Below, one piece after another: positions 30,143 to 38,985 of a DNA stretch of 64,000 bases. The stretch comes from Cyanidium caldarium. Its lineage: Eukaryota > Rhodophyta > Bangiophyceae > Cyanidiales > Cyanidiaceae. The first letter of the stretch is position 1, and each line of letters opens with the position of its first letter. The stretch is from NCBI GenBank assembly GCA_026184775.1, contig JANCYW010000006.1, positions 248,001 to 312,000 of the forward strand, given 5' to 3'. The notes under the pieces are model-generated. The model searched no databases, had not been told where the DNA came from, and saw nothing but the letters and a program-made list of their open reading frames with translations. The position numbers were made by a program, and so were the translations under genes.

Positions 30143-30613
30143 GGTAAGAGGCTGAGGGTGTGTCGGTTAACTCTAAAAGTAACTACTCCCGCTGCGATAG
30201 GTGGTGCATATCCTTTTCGGAGCTTGCTGCAGTGAGGTGTTCCGCGGCAGGTTTGGCGGCGAATGTCACGACCCATCGCATTGGTCACGGGCGTCGCTCG
30301 CTTTCGATTCGGATCGCTGCCGTCGTGCGCGTGCGCTTGCCCGGCGTGCACACGGCACGGGAACATCACTCAGGCTGCCGCTGCAGCCGGTTCCTCTTGG
30401 CCTCAACACCCTCATTTCATCCAAAACGGGCGCAAGTGCAGGTCAGTGTGTGGTGGGGAGTTGAATCGTCGAGCTGCACTGGGCACAGCCTGAGAGTAGA
30501 ACGAACTCGAGATTTCCATCGAGGCGGAACGGGCAGCGCGTGCTCGCTCGATCGGATTGCCCGTCTTTTTCACCCTCGGTTGCAACCTCATTGGCTCCTA
30601 CTTGTCTAACAAC
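30143..30613. other. Intergenic region, nothing recognised
   Basis: About 470 bp between ETF-beta and the elongase on the same strand. It must hold the ETF-beta 3' end and the elongase promoter. No gene or ncRNA signature was seen. Confidence 0.5.
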
Positions 30614-31483
30614 ATGCAGGACGTGCGACAGTGGTTGCTCGCTATCGACGATCAGTTGCTCTCCTGGCTGGGTCCGCCACACGCGGTGGCCCGGTCGCTG
30701 CCGTGGATGTTGCACCCGGCGTGGGCCGTGGTGCTCAGCGCGGCGTACTTGTTGATCATAGTGCTGGCTGTACCAACGACGATGCGGCTGTTGCGGATAC
30801 CGCCGCTGCGCATGAAACCCATGATGCGAGCCTACAACTTGTTCATGGTGGCGCTGTCGTCCTACATGGGCATCCACGGCGTGCGCCTCTGGTACGCGCT
30901 ATACTTTCAGCGGCAGGTCGGTCCGTTGCGCCCGCTGTATGTGTGGTGTGTGCCGCTAGAGCTGCCGGGCGCTGCAGATGCCAATTTGCGGCAATGGCAG
31001 AGGGAGATGACGGCGCTGGTGTGGTTGTTCACGTGGAGCAAGGCGGTCGAGTTTGCGGACACGTTGTTCATGGTGCTGGAGGGGCGCATGCGGCAAGTGT
31101 CCTTCTTGCACGTGTATCACCACGTCACCATGTTTCTGTACTGGTTTGTGAACACGTACTTTTACCCGGGCGGCGACTTGTGGTTCTCGCTGGTGCAAAA
31201 CGCGTTCGTGCACACCGTCATGTACGGCTACTACTTTGCCACCAGTTTCGGGTACAATCCGCGCTGGAAGTACTGGATTACATACGCGCAAATGTTGCAG
31301 TTCGTGTTCGATGCGCTGCAGAGCATCCTGGTGGGGTACGTGTACGGCGAGCGGGTGTGCGGTATCCCGGACCGCGTCAGCCGCGGCCTGCTGTGGTACA
31401 TGCTGAGCATGCTGGCGCTGTTCGCCCATTTCCTGCTCACCAGCCGCAAGTCCAAGACGGCGAGGAAAATAAAGGCCGCTTGA
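30614..31483 (+). CDS. ELO-family very-long-chain fatty acid elongase (3-ketoacyl-CoA synthase)
   Basis: A 289-residue ER membrane enzyme that condenses malonyl-CoA with acyl-CoA. The catalytic histidine box HVYHH is at about 166-170, preceded by WSKAVEFADTLFMVL and followed by NTYFYPGGDLWFSLVQNAFV and HTVMYGYYF, all ELO marks. Several hydrophobic helices are evident. The C-terminus KIKAA carries lysines at -3 and -5, a di-lysine ER retrieval signal. Substrate chain length cannot be predicted. The ATG at 30614 is the first in frame. Confidence 0.95.
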   Translation: MQDVRQWLLAIDDQLLSWLGPPHAVARSLPWMLHPAWAVVLSAAYLLIIVLAVPTTMRLLRIPPLRMKPMMRAYNLFMVALSSYMGIHGVRLWYALYFQRQVGPLRPLYVWCVPLELPGAADANLRQWQREMTALVWLFTWSKAVEFADTLFMVLEGRMRQVSFLHVYHHVTMFLYWFVNTYFYPGGDLWFSLVQNAFVHTVMYGYYFATSFGYNPRWKYWITYAQMLQFVFDALQSILVGYVYGERVCGIPDRVSRGLLWYMLSMLALFAHFLLTSRKSKTARKIKAA

Positions 31484-31587: not shown

Positions 31588-32013
31588 CTACAAGTGTTTC
31601 AACGCCGTCAGCACGCACAATACCAAGTTGCCCAACACGCCAAAGAGGTAAACATCGCCGCTATGACGCTTGTTGGGATCGCCAGTGGCGTAGCCGGTGA
31701 AATGGAGCCAGCGGCCGACCAGATACACCGCGCCGAGCGCTGCAGCCGCTACCGGGTACTCCAGCCCGCTCAGCAATAACAGCGGCAAGTAGAACGTGCA
31801 AGTCTCCATGTAGTGCTGGTGCCCGCGCTGTGTGCAGTTGAACACCGAGGTGCCCTGCGGCGGGTTCACCTCGAACATGTTCGGGTACGACACCTTGTAC
31901 TTTCTCCGCGCCTGGCCCACCCGCATGGAGAAGGTGGCGTGCAGCACCAGCGCGGCCACCACGTCCAGCATCACCAGGCCGTAATGCTGGGGAAGTGCCG
32001 AAGTGAGGCCCAT
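31588..32013 (-). CDS. MGST3: MAPEG family protein, microsomal glutathione S-transferase 3-like
   Basis: A 141-residue four-helix membrane protein. MGST3 marks are RRKYKVSYPNMFEV, FNCTQRGHQHYMETCTFYLP and the loop VGRWLHFTGYATGDPNKR. It would conjugate glutathione or reduce lipid hydroperoxides in the ER or outer mitochondrial membrane. The length equals the family norm (about 145-155). The ATG at 32013 precedes the first helix. It converges with the elongase gene. Confidence 0.93.
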   Translation of the reverse strand: MGLTSALPQHYGLVMLDVVAALVLHATFSMRVGQARRKYKVSYPNMFEVNPPQGTSVFNCTQRGHQHYMETCTFYLPLLLLSGLEYPVAAAALGAVYLVGRWLHFTGYATGDPNKRHSGDVYLFGVLGNLVLCVLTALKHL

Positions 32014-32556
32014 GAGGTGAGGAAGGCAACGAGGGGACAGACGGGACACAGAGGGAAAAGGATGTCGCACGCACACCGACGCGCAATGCGCTGCCCGAAT
32101 TCGCCGTGCAGCGACGACGTGGCAGTCGTATGACGAGTGCTACCACGAGAGTTGGATACAGCAACCAGAGACTTGGAAAGAGGGACACCCAACCCGGACT
32201 CATTTCGAATTCTCTATGGCTGCTCAGCGGCTGCTCTTCGACCTTCTTCAGGTATTTCATTCCATGAAACTCAAGCTTGCACCGACGCCCGCCCACCTCC
32301 TCTTTTCTTCGCGCCCCCTTCTGAGCAGACTCTCGCTCTCCCTCAACTTTCACACACGCACCCGGTGTCTCTCTCGCATCCGTTCACCGATTCACTTGAG
32401 ACGGCCTCATCGCCCGTCGCGCCCGGCGAATTCGGCCGGTGACGCGGACCACGGAACGACGCGGCGTTAGCGTCCGGTGAACGCCGCGTTTCAAGTCTCG
32501 CCTTGAACGCGCCTCCCCAAGTGCCTCTACGACACTCTTACCGCATCCTCCTCGAA
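32014..32556. promoter_or_regulatory. Divergent region, MGST3 / GDP-mannose epimerase
   Basis: 543 bp between divergent start codons. The central part has C/T-rich tracts near 32290-32400 (CTCCTCTTTTCTTCGCG, CTCTCGCTCTCCCTC). No gene was seen. Confidence 0.35.
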
Positions 32557-33651
32557 ATGCCGGCACCGAAACCGTCTCAAGTGGAGGAGCGGTTAAAGAC
32601 GGACGGCAAGATCCGCGTGTGCGTGACTGGCGCCGGCGGTTTCATCGCCTCCCACTTGGCGAAGCGGCTCAAAGCGGACGGTTACTATGTGATCGCCGCG
32701 GACTGGAAGGAGAACGAGTACATGGGGCAGGGAGATTTCTGCCACGAGTTTCACCTGGTGGATCTGCGGGAGCGCGAGCACTGTGAACGGGTCAGTCGCG
32801 ACTGCCACACAGTATACAACCTGGCGGCGGACATGGGCGGCATGGGATTCATCCAGAGCAATCACAGCGTCATCCTGTACAACAACAGCCTGATCAGCCT
32901 GCACATGCTTGAGAGCGCGCGGGTGAACAAGGTGAAACGCTTCTACTACGCCTCGAGCGCCTGCATCTACCCCGAGTACGCGCAGCTGACGGAGGATATG
33001 CAGCAGGGCCTGAAAGAGTCGGACGCGTGGCCGGCACAGCCGCAAGATGCGTACGGACTGGAGAAGCTCATGTCCGAGGAGCTATGCATGCACTATCGCA
33101 AGGATTTCGGCATCGAGACCCGCATCGGCCGCTTCCACAACGTGTACGGCCCGCAGGGCACCTGGCAAGGCGGCCGCGAGAAGGCGCCGGCGGCATTCTG
33201 TCGCAAGGTGCTCGTCTCCGATACCGACTTTGAAATGTGGGGCGACGGCAAGCAGACGCGCTCCTTCCTCTACATCGATGACGCGGTGGAGGCGGTGATC
33301 CGTCTGACCGACTCGGACTTTGCCGAGCCGCTGAACATCGGCTCGGAGGAGATGATCTCCATGAACGGCATGGCGGAGCTGATCATGAGCTTTGAGGGCA
33401 AGCAGCTGCCCATTCGACACATTCCCGGTCCAGAGGGCGTGCGCGGCCGCAACTCCAACAACGACCTCTGCCGCAAGGTGCTCGGCTGGGAGCCGCAGAT
33501 TCCCCTCAAGGACGGCCTGCGGCGCACGTACCGGTGGATCAAGGAGCAGATCGAAGAGGAGCGCAAGCAGGGCATTGATCGGGATTATCGCAGCAGTCAG
33601 GTGGTGGCCACGCACGCGCCCACCGATTCCAAGGCTGCCAAGCGCAAGTAG
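32557..33651 (+). CDS. GME: GDP-mannose 3,5-epimerase
   Basis: A 364-residue extended SDR converting GDP-D-mannose to GDP-L-galactose, feeding both ascorbate (Smirnoff-Wheeler) synthesis and L-galactose-containing wall polysaccharides. The NAD site is VCVTGAGGFIASHLAKRLK; the active-site set includes ASSACIYPEY and the YxxxK in AYGLEKLMSEELC. GRFHNVYGPQGTWQGGREKA and TRSFLYIDDAVEAVIRL are near-identical to plant GME. Length matches the plant enzyme (about 370-377). The ATG at 32557 is the first in frame. Confidence 0.97.
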   Translation: MPAPKPSQVEERLKTDGKIRVCVTGAGGFIASHLAKRLKADGYYVIAADWKENEYMGQGDFCHEFHLVDLREREHCERVSRDCHTVYNLAADMGGMGFIQSNHSVILYNNSLISLHMLESARVNKVKRFYYASSACIYPEYAQLTEDMQQGLKESDAWPAQPQDAYGLEKLMSEELCMHYRKDFGIETRIGRFHNVYGPQGTWQGGREKAPAAFCRKVLVSDTDFEMWGDGKQTRSFLYIDDAVEAVIRLTDSDFAEPLNIGSEEMISMNGMAELIMSFEGKQLPIRHIPGPEGVRGRNSNNDLCRKVLGWEPQIPLKDGLRRTYRWIKEQIEEERKQGIDRDYRSSQVVATHAPTDSKAAKRK

Positions 33652-33790: not shown

Positions 33791-35083
33791 TTACACGCTG
33801 CACTTGCAGCCGCCCGAATGATTGCACTTTTTGGGGTCGCACTCGCACTGCATCGGGTCGCAATTGCACAGACCGCGACCGTCCGCGTCTCCATGGTCCA
33901 CCGGCTCGGCCGTCGACTCTACCACTGTCGCTTCGTTCGTCGCACAGGCGTTGCAAGTCACCCCGCTCGGGATGTCATTCATCTCGCTCGCGGTGTAATT
34001 CGGCGGCAGCGGCGCTTTCCGCGACGCCGACGAGACGGTCATGCACGCCACCCAGTAACCAGTGGTGTGGCCGGCAATGATGCTCAGGAACAGCGGCACG
34101 CTATAGGTCATCACCGCCAACATCAGCAAATAGTGCAGCGCATACCACGCACCGTGCGCCAGCGAGCGCAACGCGTTGCGCAACCCGGCGCGCTCGGCGA
34201 CGGCATCCCACAGGCGCGTATCGGCCAGCCGGACGGTTGCCAGACTGGCCACCAGTGCCAACACGAACACCAACACACTCGCACAGACTGTGCGCGCCGC
34301 CCCTTGCACCACAAAATGCTTGAACCACAGCACAAAACCCATGGCGCCGGCGTCCCAGAAGAACCACGATGCCATCGACATGTTGCCGCTGTTCATCGGC
34401 GCCATACGACCGCTGTCGGTTATCCAGTTGCCGTACCCGGGCGCCGTGACCACCAGCACCCAAAAGGTGACCGCAAACGCCAGCAACATGCCGGTCAGCA
34501 GCATCAACGCCCGCCAGTCCACGCGCCTCCAGGCGCGCGCCACCAACGTATCCGGGCGGTGTTGCCGCACCCAGGTGGCCACCTCTAGGGCGACCAGCGC
34601 CAGCGCGGCCACGCCCACAAACACGCCGACGGTGACCTCTAGCGGATGTACGTGGCGATCGAACATGCGATGCAGCCGCCGAAAGCCGGTGAACACTTGC
34701 AACAGGAACGAGGCCAGCAGCAGAACGGCCACCGAGCGGTGTGCCCATAGCCACACGCGACGCCGCTTGCTCTCTACGACTGGCCGCAACGCCCCCAACA
34801 GCACCTGACCGAACAACAGCACCGCAAAGGCGAACCCGTTAAAGGCGTGTCGATCGTGCATGCTCAGAAACGCCTGATGCCACACCTCCGTCAAAACGAA
34901 CGCCAGCACCGTAAACATCAACGCCGCCAGCTCCAGCGCCAAGTGAATTCGGAACCAGTGCGAGCAACTGCGCCCGTATCGCGCCACCGCCGTGCCCAGC
35001 ACCAGCAGCACGCCGCCCGCCGCATAACCGATGTCGGCGTGCGCTGTCATCATAGCCGGCACCTCCGGCCAAGCGGACGACAT
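33791..35083 (-). CDS. Cytochrome b561 - CTR copper transporter fusion with cysteine-rich tail
   Basis: A 430-residue protein with three parts. Residues 1-215 form a cytochrome b561 core of about six helices, like the membrane part of DOMON-type reductases; likely heme ligands are H15, H47 (FRIHLALE), H79 (DRHAFNGF) and H115 (WAHRSVAVLL). Residues 225-350 are a complete CTR importer: a Met cluster (MAPMNSGNMSM), WFFW, the helix-2 MxxxM in YLLMLAVMTY and the helix-3 GxxxG in AGHTTGYW. Residues 375-430 hold nine cysteines in CNAC, CNC, CEC and CKC patterns, like a metallothionein. The reading is Cu(II) reduction, Cu(I) import and cytosolic capture in one chain. The ATG at 35083 is firm. It converges on the GME gene. 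Confidence 0.9.
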   Translation of the reverse strand: MSSAWPEVPAMMTAHADIGYAAGGVLLVLGTAVARYGRSCSHWFRIHLALELAALMFTVLAFVLTEVWHQAFLSMHDRHAFNGFAFAVLLFGQVLLGALRPVVESKRRRVWLWAHRSVAVLLLASFLLQVFTGFRRLHRMFDRHVHPLEVTVGVFVGVAALALVALEVATWVRQHRPDTLVARAWRRVDWRALMLLTGMLLAFAVTFWVLVVTAPGYGNWITDSGRMAPMNSGNMSMASWFFWDAGAMGFVLWFKHFVVQGAARTVCASVLVFVLALVASLATVRLADTRLWDAVAERAGLRNALRSLAHGAWYALHYLLMLAVMTYSVPLFLSIIAGHTTGYWVACMTVSSASRKAPLPPNYTASEMNDIPSGVTCNACATNEATVVESTAEPVDHGDADGRGLCNCDPMQCECDPKKCNHSGGCKCSV

Positions 35084-35458: not shown

Positions 35459-36037
35459 TTAGAAGAACAGCTTGGGCGGCTTGCCGCTGAGCGTGTACTT
35501 GGCGCGCCACTCGCCCGGTTCGCCGGTCTTGCCTCCCTTGGACAGCACTTTCTGCACGCTCAGCATGCCGTTTTGCACGCCCAGGGCGCATCGCCCCTCG
35601 GTGGAGCACTGCAGACCAGCCATCCACTCATCGTCGGCGATGGTGAACTTGCGCTTCAGGGTGCCTGTCAGCAGTATGTTCCTCTGATCGGCGAGCGCGC
35701 GGTTCGACACGGCCAGTTTCGCCTCAGCGACCGTATCCTCGTCCACCTGCAGCTCCTTTGTGGCGATGGCCTTGACGCCCCACTTGGACAAGTTCTTGCC
35801 CTGCCCCGCCCATGCCACCAACTTCACCGCCACCGGCCAGTCGTCATTGCCCGCCTTGTAGTTGTGCACCAGCGACGCCCGCAGCGACTCGCCCGCTGTC
35901 GCCGACGCCACGTTGGCCCGCTCACGGTTGGCCACCCCGCGCAGCACCAACGTCGTCTTATCGTTCACCGTGTACTCGTACCTAACATCCACCCCGAACG
36001 CCTCCGAACTGCTGCTGAAGAGTATCCCGGTATCCAT
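35459..36037 (-). CDS. Small beta-rich protein, possible plastid outer-envelope channel (OEP21-like)
   Basis: A 192-residue protein without signal peptide or hydrophobic helix. It consists of short alternating strands (VDVRYEYTVNDKTTLVLRG, VKLVAWAGQ, WGVKAIATKELQV, AEAKLAVSNRA, TGTLKRKFTIADDEW, GEWRAKYTLSG), consistent with an antiparallel beta barrel. The start METS/MDTG pattern, the overall length and the strand order recall OEP21 of the chloroplast outer envelope, but the match is weak and recalled only. The ATG at 36037 is the first in frame. Confidence 0.5.
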   Translation of the reverse strand: MDTGILFSSSSEAFGVDVRYEYTVNDKTTLVLRGVANRERANVASATAGESLRASLVHNYKAGNDDWPVAVKLVAWAGQGKNLSKWGVKAIATKELQVDEDTVAEAKLAVSNRALADQRNILLTGTLKRKFTIADDEWMAGLQCSTEGRCALGVQNGMLSVQKVLSKGGKTGEPGEWRAKYTLSGKPPKLFF

Positions 36038-36586
36038 GTTTTTGAACGACGCTCACAAACCGTGCACCCAGCAGCGCCAATGCAAACCGAGCTCGCCGCC
36101 GCGGCCAGCACCCGACACGTCAGCCGCCGCGCTCGCCGGCTGTCGGAGGGGCGCGCTTTGAACGGCGGCGACGACGACGTGGCGAGCGCATCGTGCACGC
36201 CTCGCAACGGCCGCGGCCACGTCAGCGATGATGGCATGGCCGGATCGCCAGATCGCGAGCCGCATCGCCCGCAGGCGCTGCGGCGAATGGCGCGCGGAAC
36301 TCCGCAACAAGGGAACCCCCCGATCGGAGACGAAGGGAATCTCGGAACCGCGATGCGGCTCGACGGCTCGCGCGACAAGGGAAGCGGTGCAGCCAACGGG
36401 GACGCGATGGGTCGCAGGTCGCCGGGGCTGTCGCAGACACGACCGCCGCAGCAGCTGCGGGCACAGCGTGGGACGAGTCGGTAACGGCTGCAGTGCACTC
36501 GGGCGATAAGCAGGCCAGCGAGTTAGTGTGTCCAGCAAGTGACGGGGACGGAAGCGCGCACCCACTCGTTCCCGGCACTGGGCACG
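36038..36586. promoter_or_regulatory. Divergent region, beta-barrel protein / ankyrin protein
   Basis: 549 bp between divergent ATGs. Long but meaningless reading frames cross it. No repeat, RNA gene or element was identified. Confidence 0.3.
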
Positions 36587-38032
36587 ATGGGCGGTTGGCG
36601 TCTTCTTCTCGGACCGTGCGATGGCAGCGGTGCCGAGCGCGTCGAGGAGGACGACCGGTATGGCCGGGGACGTGCCTGGGAAGATATGATGCGCGCGTGT
36701 CGCAGTGGCAACGTCCATACGGTATTGTCGCTGTTGGAGCGGGCGGCAGTGCGGCGACGCCTGAACGAGCGGGACGTCCGAGGGCGCACTGCGCTCATGG
36801 TGGCAGCGCGACACGGCCACGCGCAGGTCTGCCGATGTTTGTTGACTTTTGCAGCCAACGGGGTGCGGGTGAATGCGCGCAACTCGCTGCGCGATGCTCC
36901 CGACGCTGGCATGACCGCGTTAATGTACGCCGCCAGACGCGGCCACGTCGAGACGGTGGACGCACTGCTGGAGGCGCACGCGAAGGTGAATGTCGCGAAA
37001 CACAACGGTGCCACCGCGCTGATGTTCGCCGCGCAATGCGGGTCGGCCCCGGTGGTGCAGCGGCTGCTGCAACATGGCGGATCGGATGTGAATGCGCGCT
37101 CGCGAGACGGCTGGACGGCGCTGCTGGTCGCTTCTTTGGCAGGTGACGCCACGGTAACGCATCTGTTGCTCCAGGCTGGCGCCGATGTGAACGCCACTCG
37201 ACCGGATGGCGTGTGCGCAGTGCATCTGGCGGCCATGTGTGGACACATCGATCTGCTGCGATTGCTGTTGCGGCACGGTGCCGACGTGCAGCGACGGCAA
37301 GAGCGCGGCGCCACCCCGCTGATGCTGGCAGCGCAAGCCGGGCACACTGAAGCGTGCCAACTGCTGATCGATGCTGGCGCAGCACCCGACGAATGCGCCG
37401 ACGACGGCGCCACGCCACTCATGGCCGCGGCATTGCAGGGCTACTTGCACACTTGCGCGGCGCTGTGCAAAGCCGGCGCCAAAGTCGACGCCTCCGCTTC
37501 CGACGGCGAGACCGCTCTGTTCGCGGCAGTGCTGCGTAACCGCGTGGATGTGGTGCGTTTCTTGGTGGAATTCGGCGCCAAATTGGAGGCAGTGAATGGG
37601 CGCGGCCACACGCCGCTCATGTGGGCCGCCTGGTACGGTCAAGCGACGGCGCTGGAGGCGTTGCTGCAGGCGGGCGCGGATGGCAGCGCCGCCGATCCGC
37701 AGGGCAACACCGCGCTTCATTGGGCCGCCCGAGCCGGCCACCAACCCTGCGTGGAGCTGCTGCTGAACCACTGTAGCAGCGTCGGTGAGTGCAGTGCGCT
37801 GCTGCAGAGGCGCAATGCGCACGGACAGACCGCCGTGGAGGTCGGCTGCGCATGCCATCACCCCGAGTGCGTCTCCACGCTGCTGCTGTACGCTTCGAAG
37901 GCGGGTGTGCGAGGCGATAACGAGTCGTTGGCAGCGGCAGAGGCGATCGAACTCAAGTGGGCGGGCGCGCTGCCGATGACGGCGGTGGCGGTGGAACTGC
38001 CGATGCCGCCCGTGGACGCGCCGGCCATGTAG
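36587..38032 (+). CDS. Ankyrin-repeat protein (about 11-12 repeats)
   Basis: A 481-residue protein made almost entirely of ankyrin repeats. Units are recognised by GRTALMVAARHGH, GMTALMYAARRGH, GATALMFAAQCGS, GWTALLVASLAGD, GATPLMLAAQAGH, GATPLMAAALQGY, GHTPLMWAAWYGQ and GNTALHWAARAGH at about 33-residue spacing, with degenerate capping units at both ends. There is no enzyme, zinc finger, SOCS or membrane domain. It is a protein-interaction scaffold; partners cannot be inferred. The ATG at 36587 is the first in frame. Confidence 0.9.
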   Translation: MGGWRLLLGPCDGSGAERVEEDDRYGRGRAWEDMMRACRSGNVHTVLSLLERAAVRRRLNERDVRGRTALMVAARHGHAQVCRCLLTFAANGVRVNARNSLRDAPDAGMTALMYAARRGHVETVDALLEAHAKVNVAKHNGATALMFAAQCGSAPVVQRLLQHGGSDVNARSRDGWTALLVASLAGDATVTHLLLQAGADVNATRPDGVCAVHLAAMCGHIDLLRLLLRHGADVQRRQERGATPLMLAAQAGHTEACQLLIDAGAAPDECADDGATPLMAAALQGYLHTCAALCKAGAKVDASASDGETALFAAVLRNRVDVVRFLVEFGAKLEAVNGRGHTPLMWAAWYGQATALEALLQAGADGSAADPQGNTALHWAARAGHQPCVELLLNHCSSVGECSALLQRRNAHGQTAVEVGCACHHPECVSTLLLYASKAGVRGDNESLAAAEAIELKWAGALPMTAVAVELPMPPVDAPAM

Positions 38033-38133: not shown

Positions 38134-38706
38134 TCATCCTTTTCCCCGCCATCGGCTCCAAACGTCTCTCGCCTGGCGCGCCGTCACTTGCCACGGGGAG
38201 TAGCGCTCGGTATCAAAACCGTCGGCGGCCCAGTCCCAGGCCGCGGTGTAGACGTGCACGCGCCGCACCGATTCACCGCTTTCCGCGTCTACGATCAGTT
38301 CCGGCGCGATATACGTGGCACCTAGAATGCCCTCCGCGTTATATACGCGACCGCGCCACTCGGGATGCCGCGCCAACCACGCCCGAGCGTACGCCCCACT
38401 GCGCACTCCGGCGGTGCAGTACGCCACCAGAACAGCGTGCTCTGCTTCCCACCGCTTCTTCACTTGTTGCTGTATTTGACGCTCGGCTTCGAGCGGTGTC
38501 ACTGCCGTGCGTAATATAGACACCCGACGCTCCTCCGGTTCACGCACGTCCACCAGCAGTACCCGTCGCTGCGGTGGACGCATCTCCAGCCATGAACGCA
38601 ACGTCTCGGTGCGCAACAGAGGCGGTTCATCCGTTGATGCATGTGACATTCGTTCCAATTGTGCCATCCACGTCTCCAGCCTCTTCTGCTTCTCCGACCG
38701 GTCCAT
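38134..38706 (-). CDS. Rhodanese-domain protein
   Basis: A 190-residue single rhodanese domain. LLVDVREPEERRVSIL opens the fold. The active loop is YCTAGVRSGAYARAWL, with the catalytic cysteine and a following Arg as in sulfurtransferases. VYNAEGILGATY closes the domain, after which about 50 residues extend (VRRVHVYTAAWDWAADGF). It resembles bacterial stand-alone rhodanese-like proteins of plastid or mitochondrial origin. The ATG at 38706 (MDRSEKQKRLETWM) gives no obvious transit peptide. Sulfur carrier versus structural role is open. Confidence 0.85.
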   Translation of the reverse strand: MDRSEKQKRLETWMAQLERMSHASTDEPPLLRTETLRSWLEMRPPQRRVLLVDVREPEERRVSILRTAVTPLEAERQIQQQVKKRWEAEHAVLVAYCTAGVRSGAYARAWLARHPEWRGRVYNAEGILGATYIAPELIVDAESGESVRRVHVYTAAWDWAADGFDTERYSPWQVTARQARDVWSRWRGKG

Positions 38707-38985
38707 GAAAAAGGATGCGGCCACCGCACCCTCGGGTGCGCACCGCCCTCGGGTCGGTCTCCGCGCGGGAGGCGATCGCGACAACCAACCGTTACACACA
38801 CACACGCGCGCGTCGTGTGTTGTGCATCTCGCCGCGATGGCTTCTGCTGCGGGCGCTTTTCCGCGCTCGACGTGGAGCGGCCACCGACCGCGTCTCCCAA
38901 CACCGCGCTTTCCGTTTCTCGGCGTGATTCCTCACCTCATCAACGCAGCACACACATACCACTCCCACCCCCACGCTCCTTACTG

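Follow-up and report, generated by a model that had tools for sequence, protein, structure and literature searches.

One gene of the red alga Cyanidium caldarium encodes a 430-residue protein (P0001) in which a b561-like helix bundle is followed by a CTR module and then by a cysteine-rich tail, and this fused architecture is real and, judging from its relatives, old within the Cyanidiophyceae. We put the probability at about 60% that the product is a one-chain copper uptake protein of these algae of acid hot springs, in which ascorbate-driven reduction of Cu(II), import through the CTR module and capture by a thiolate tail would follow one another. Its parts are of known kinds; the combination, a CTR-family protein apparently carrying its own b561-like module as well as a Cys-rich tail, is one for which we found no description. 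The first-pass annotation of this DNA knew of no described protein with this order of parts, and our search of the mainly open-access literature, judged by titles and abstract openings, likewise returned no description of a b561-CTR fusion; the listed papers on copper uptake in these algae described none, nor did passages from PMC12218971 and PMC3237598.

CTR channels carry Cu(I), and extracellular copper is mostly Cu(II) (PMC8867124). How copper reduction is tied to CTR entry in human cells has been called unclear, and in yeast the same inferred division of labor, reduction and then import, is assigned to Fre1/Fre2 and Ctr1 (PMC8867124). The yeast components are separate proteins, whereas the algal protein is one chain and its reductase-like part is of the b561 type and not of the FRE type. 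The natural fusion puts a reductase-like part, a channel and a receiver in a single chain, and this design would allow their coupling to be probed in one gene, through changes to a His pair, a Met pair or the tail. If the uptake reading is true, the protein would be a compact system suited to acid, metal-rich water. The annotation had proposed that a fusion would couple reduction, passage and capture; the order of parts behind that proposal is real and conserved, and the three activities themselves are predictions.

The gene lies at 33791..35083 on the minus strand of the window, the 64,000-nucleotide stretch of contig JANCYW010000006.1 that was analyzed. Translation of the minus strand confirms the earlier statement that a 430-residue chain reads through, with 430 codons and one final stop under both table 11 and the standard code, while the plus strand of the same interval contains internal stops. 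GC3 in four consecutive parts of the frame is 0.81, 0.94, 0.82 and 0.79, so that the frame looks coding through the b561/CTR junction.

Eight full-length relatives (P0002-P0009; 394-430 residues, query cover 97-100%, identity 35-94%) were retrieved from about 5.8 billion proteins, of which only the 8000 candidates that shared the most words with the query were scored per search, a filter under which remote b561-CTR fusions outside the Cyanidiophyceae could be missed. The source labels identify P0004 as Galdieria partita and P0008 as Cyanidiococcus yangmingshanensis, and P0006, labelled Galph1/GphlegSOOS, was taken as a Galdieria phlegrea SOOS model; the UniRef name of P0004 is 'Copper transport protein', and that of P0008 starts alike. 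A Cyanidioschyzon merolae protein was absent among the labelled matches of the protein searches, no bacterial or viral relative was confirmed among 41 pattern matches in genome contigs and 18 in viral contigs, and NCBIfam yielded nothing useful for the four of the nine sequences tested.

The annotation had suggested looking for the same architecture in other proteomes, and all eight relatives keep the order of parts. Identical throughout the nine sequences are the four heme-type histidines, M235, M237, the MxxxM and GxxxG motifs and six tail cysteines; M230 is confined to the two Cyanidium-type sequences, P0001 and P0002. Trees built separately for the b561-like and CTR parts each split Galdieria-type from Cyanidium/Cyanidiococcus-type sequences, and pairwise distances in one part track those in the other with a correlation of 0.948 (36 non-independent pairs). 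From this we infer that the fusion is older than the split of Cyanidiales and Galdieriales. Two genes joined by the assembly, which the annotation had named as a way in which its reading could fail, or a chance open frame are practically untenable as explanations: the order is kept in both algal groups and in eight full-length sequences from other sources, GC3 is even along the frame, and the Cyanidium caldarium genome is reported to contain fewer than 50 introns (PMC9812998). On the strength of the conserved fusion we ruled both out.

The CTR assignment of this family is solid. The membrane module (residues 238-346; 34046..34372, minus strand) exceeds the PF04145 cut-off of 25.3 in all nine sequences (36.2-48.2 bits), the match covering mainly helices 2-3 and leaving CTR helix 1 outside in most of them. 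An eight-sequence profile matches the solved CTR1 structure 6m97 at E 3e-7, and hhalign gave 77% probability for helix 1 and 96% for helices 2-3, values that none of 300 column shuffles reached in either comparison. In the sequence alignment with 6m97, MLAVM and GHTTG of the algal protein pair with its MLVFM and GAGLG; they are the MxxxM motif M321-M325 (34109-34123) and the GxxxG motif G338-G342 (34058-34072), both on the minus strand and invariant. Ahead of helix 1 lies a Met cluster (residues 227-237; 34373..34405, minus strand) formed by M227, M230, M235 and M237, and every sequence has four or five methionines between W220 and G249. The full CTR set claimed in the annotation could thus be located residue by residue. 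Like CTR/COPT proteins (PF04145; 6m97), the algal protein has MxxxM in helix 2, GxxxG in helix 3 and a Met cluster ahead of its first CTR helix; it differs from them by the six-segment b561-like module in front and the longer Cys-rich tail behind.

A search of the alga's own genome (8,787,356 bases, 20 contigs) returned this gene as the only CTR match, and no second copy of the gene at E up to 1. The result bears on whether the same chemistry might operate in a vacuole-type membrane, releasing stored copper to the cytosol as CTR2-like proteins would. CTR2 acts at vacuoles (PMC12731240), and the algal sequence has about 11 residues ahead of its first hydrophobic segment, with no location signal identified. 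Such a placement would nonetheless leave the cell without an uptake route through its sole CTR match, and a long Met cluster is commoner in surface CTRs and missing from CTR2 (PMC12731240), so that we judge a vacuolar role unlikely.

The front module (residues 12-172; 34568..35050, minus strand) is b561-like, with a similarity that is remote. Its four heme-type histidines, which the annotation had recognized as b561 histidines, are H15 (35039-35041), H47 (34943-34945), H79 (34847-34849) and H115 (34739-34741), all encoded on the minus strand and invariant. With a PF03188 cut-off of 23, P0007 scores 35.3 bits and P0006 22.5, and the other seven sequences, P0001 included, have no match; as a yardstick, the b561 stretch of a plant CYBDOM protein scores 33.7 bits. 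Sequence and profile searches with the family matched no solved b561. Direct hhalign comparison of the b561-like block with fragments of 4o6y/5zle gave a score of 29.7 and a probability of 38%, against 22.8 for the best of 300 column shuffles, 17.1 for the reversed block and 10.6 for the CTR block (145 circular shifts reached 29.8 at best, but local stretches survive them and they are no real control). A search for PF03188 in the alga's own genome found no match, and as the controls were silent too it is uninformative.

The columns of this alignment place H47, H79 and H115 on H84, H118 and H157 of 4o6y. H15 precedes the start of the local alignment, and its distance to H47 is 32 residues, compared with 33 from H51 to H84 in 4o6y. 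The invariant H69 (34877..34879, minus strand) falls on H106 of 4o6y, equivalent to H108 of Dcytb, a histidine that binds metal at the outer site and whose variants retain 20-25% of ferric reduction, and the likewise invariant R108 (34760..34762, minus strand) falls on R150, equivalent to R152 of Dcytb, which binds cytosolic ascorbate (PMC6123691). Dcytb and AtCytb561 (PF03188; 5zle, 4o6y) therefore share with the algal protein three aligned heme histidines, the outer metal-site histidine and the ascorbate arginine; they differ from it in that the similarity is remote, the lysines K79/K83 that Dcytb has at its ascorbate site are not matched by residues at the equivalent positions, and a CTR module is fused behind.

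The Arabidopsis Cu(II)/Fe(III) reductase HYP1, a CYBDOM protein with five b561 helices, reduces Cu(II) with cytosolic ascorbate, and its modelled ascorbate arginine lies seven residues before the last histidine (PMC10784544). The spacing of its histidines is 34/33/36, against 32/32/36 in the algal protein, which resembles HYP1 further in having an arginine seven residues before the last histidine and a first histidine without a preceding helix (PMC10784544). Pfam found a DOMON domain in none of the nine sequences, and we consequently do not file the protein as a CYBDOM, from which it also differs by the CTR channel fused behind. No solved CYBDOM structure was found, the sole listed match (E 0.12) being an unrelated bacterial chain that we took as chance. 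An origin from DUF4079 was considered and set aside: weak matches appeared in five of the nine sequences, all below the cut-off (12.2 bits for P0001), so that a distant relation is possible. Two proteins of the same genome do exceed the DUF4079 cut-off (G000:C5:401162-401581, L007; G000:C1:50058-50486, L008).

The remoteness of the b561 similarity lends some weight to the alternative that the module serves Fe(III), the ascorbyl radical or another acceptor, or is inactive, with the CTR part joined for folding, regulation or assembly and Cu(II) reduced elsewhere. Proteins of the b561 type act on iron and on the ascorbyl radical (PMC6123691, PMC4425144), and the genome encodes one ferric-reductase-type protein (G000:C14:239698-240003, L002; it has an FAD-binding domain and is the single Ferric_reduct match when E values up to 1 are allowed). 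That the module is fused to a Cu(I) channel, however, suggests copper, and the retention of the four heme-type histidines, H69 and R108 in all nine sequences argues against lost function; we regard this alternative as improbable.

Averaged hydropathy peaks at residues 25, 55, 90, 125, 157, 202 and 275, followed by a long stretch at about 316-342, and we read the protein as six helices and then three CTR helices, the last two of them close together as in 6m97. The sixth hydrophobic segment and the linker (residues 192-219; 34427..34510, minus strand, assigned from hydropathy) belong to the least conserved membrane stretch, residues 146-219, which is 20-31% identical to the non-Cyanidium sequences. 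In all nine proteins each heme-type histidine lies 8-11 residues ahead of the center of its segment, an offset that would bring H15 and H79 to the same face, with H47 and H115 at the opposite one. The annotation's b561 reading depends on histidines in opposed helices, and the segments appear to alternate as a b561 needs. The loops placed inside carry 4-6 (loop 3), 1-6 (loop 5) and 3-6 (loop 7) basic residues and loop 2, placed outside, carries 0-1, the exception being the outside loop 4 with 3-4. Since R136 and R139 of this loop lie about where Dcytb has K181 and R187, which border its outer pocket (PMC6123691), the basic character of the loop may be functional. Under this predicted topology the Met cluster would share a face with the outer heme, and the Cys tail with the inner heme.

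The tail (residues 377-428; 33800..33955, minus strand) contains nine cysteines, at positions 377, 380, 406, 408, 413, 415, 420, 426 and 428; three more lie elsewhere in the chain (C40, C267 and C347). All nine noted in the annotation are thus present in P0001, but C377 and C380 are confined to P0001 and P0002, while C406, C408, C413, C415, C426 and C428 are invariant and C420 is kept in seven of the nine sequences. The conserved part, CxCx4CxCx4Cx5CxC (33800-33868, minus strand), packs seven cysteines into 23 residues, and the three Cyanidiococcus-type sequences have extra CC pairs upstream of it; in whole-protein shuffles CxCx(3-5)CxC arose in 10 of 20000. The label 'metallothionein-like' given earlier holds for this CxC pattern and not for family membership, as no metallothionein family matched at E up to 10 (P0001-P0008) or up to 1 (P0009), and a CxC pattern alone is not enough for a metallothionein. 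The tail shares the CxCx4CxC spacing of metallothioneins and of Mac1, where it forms the core of the copper-sensing motif (PMC4992176); it differs from both in that it matches no metallothionein family and sits on a membrane protein. By its cysteines the tail resembles a Cu(I)-thiolate site.

Such a site might store copper, pass it on or sense it. As a sensor, the tail would inactivate or remove the transporter once the cytosol is replete with copper, instead of serving capture and hand-over, a serious possibility that we nevertheless place below an even chance. Shut-off of yeast Ctr1 works through its tail, which favors a sensor. So do the core shared with Mac1 and the withdrawal of animal CTR1 in answer to Cu(I) (PMC8867124); the human CTR1 tail, by contrast, passes copper to Atox1 (PMC12731240). 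A sensing tail and the one-chain uptake model are compatible, and one does not exclude the other.

In the one-chain uptake model, a cytosolic donor, most likely ascorbate, would pass an electron to a putative inner heme on H47/H115, from which it would cross to an outer heme on H15/H79 and reduce Cu(II), whose binding place would lie close to H69 and to the outer loop R136-L-x-R139-M-F, itself conserved. Also on this face, the Met cluster would take the resulting Cu(I) and deliver it to the CTR pore with its MxxxM and GxxxG motifs, and the cytosolic CxC tail would catch it for hand-over. Several points speak against this model: PF03188 fails in eight of the nine sequences, the searches matched no solved b561, hhalign gives the b561-like block 38% in an alignment that omits H15, K79/K83 are unmatched, loop 4 is basic, and solved b561s are dimers (PMC6123691) while CTR is a trimer (PMC8867124), which makes the assembly of the fused chain ambiguous. 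More tentatively, at well under even odds, the protein may be a redox-driven machine dating from the Cyanidiales/Galdieriales ancestor, in which ascorbate electrons would run through two hemes to Cu(II) at H69, Cu(I) would be transferred, never set free, to a Met cluster in its own or a neighboring chain, the CTR pore would be ringed by its own reductases, and the thiolate tail would act as an Atx1-type chaperone.

The genome offers a lead on this last function. HMA domains gave two matches (E up to 10; 14 of 14 control genomes positive), both in one P-type ATPase frame (G000:C11 about 111270-112175, L003), the sole HMA frame found. The genome search revealed no Atx1-like HMA protein apart from this ATPase, and as the Atx1 query, empty, was run without a positive control, the missing protein is a lead and not proof of absence.

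Ascorbate is a plausible donor in view of two further genes. A GDP-mannose 3,5-epimerase (32503-33651, plus strand; PDB match E 8e-165), which belongs to the ascorbate pathway of the plant type, is convergent with the b561-CTR gene, their ends 139 bases apart, and one ALO-domain protein is encoded in the same genome; the adjacency of epimerase and fusion gene may be due to chance. Upstream of the fusion gene, on the same strand, a 192-residue open frame (35459-36037, minus strand) has no Pfam match at E up to 0.01. The remaining neighbors encode an ELO elongase (30557-31483, plus strand), a MAPEG protein (31588-32076, minus strand), an ankyrin-repeat protein (36539-38032, plus strand) and a rhodanese-domain protein (38134-38805, minus strand).
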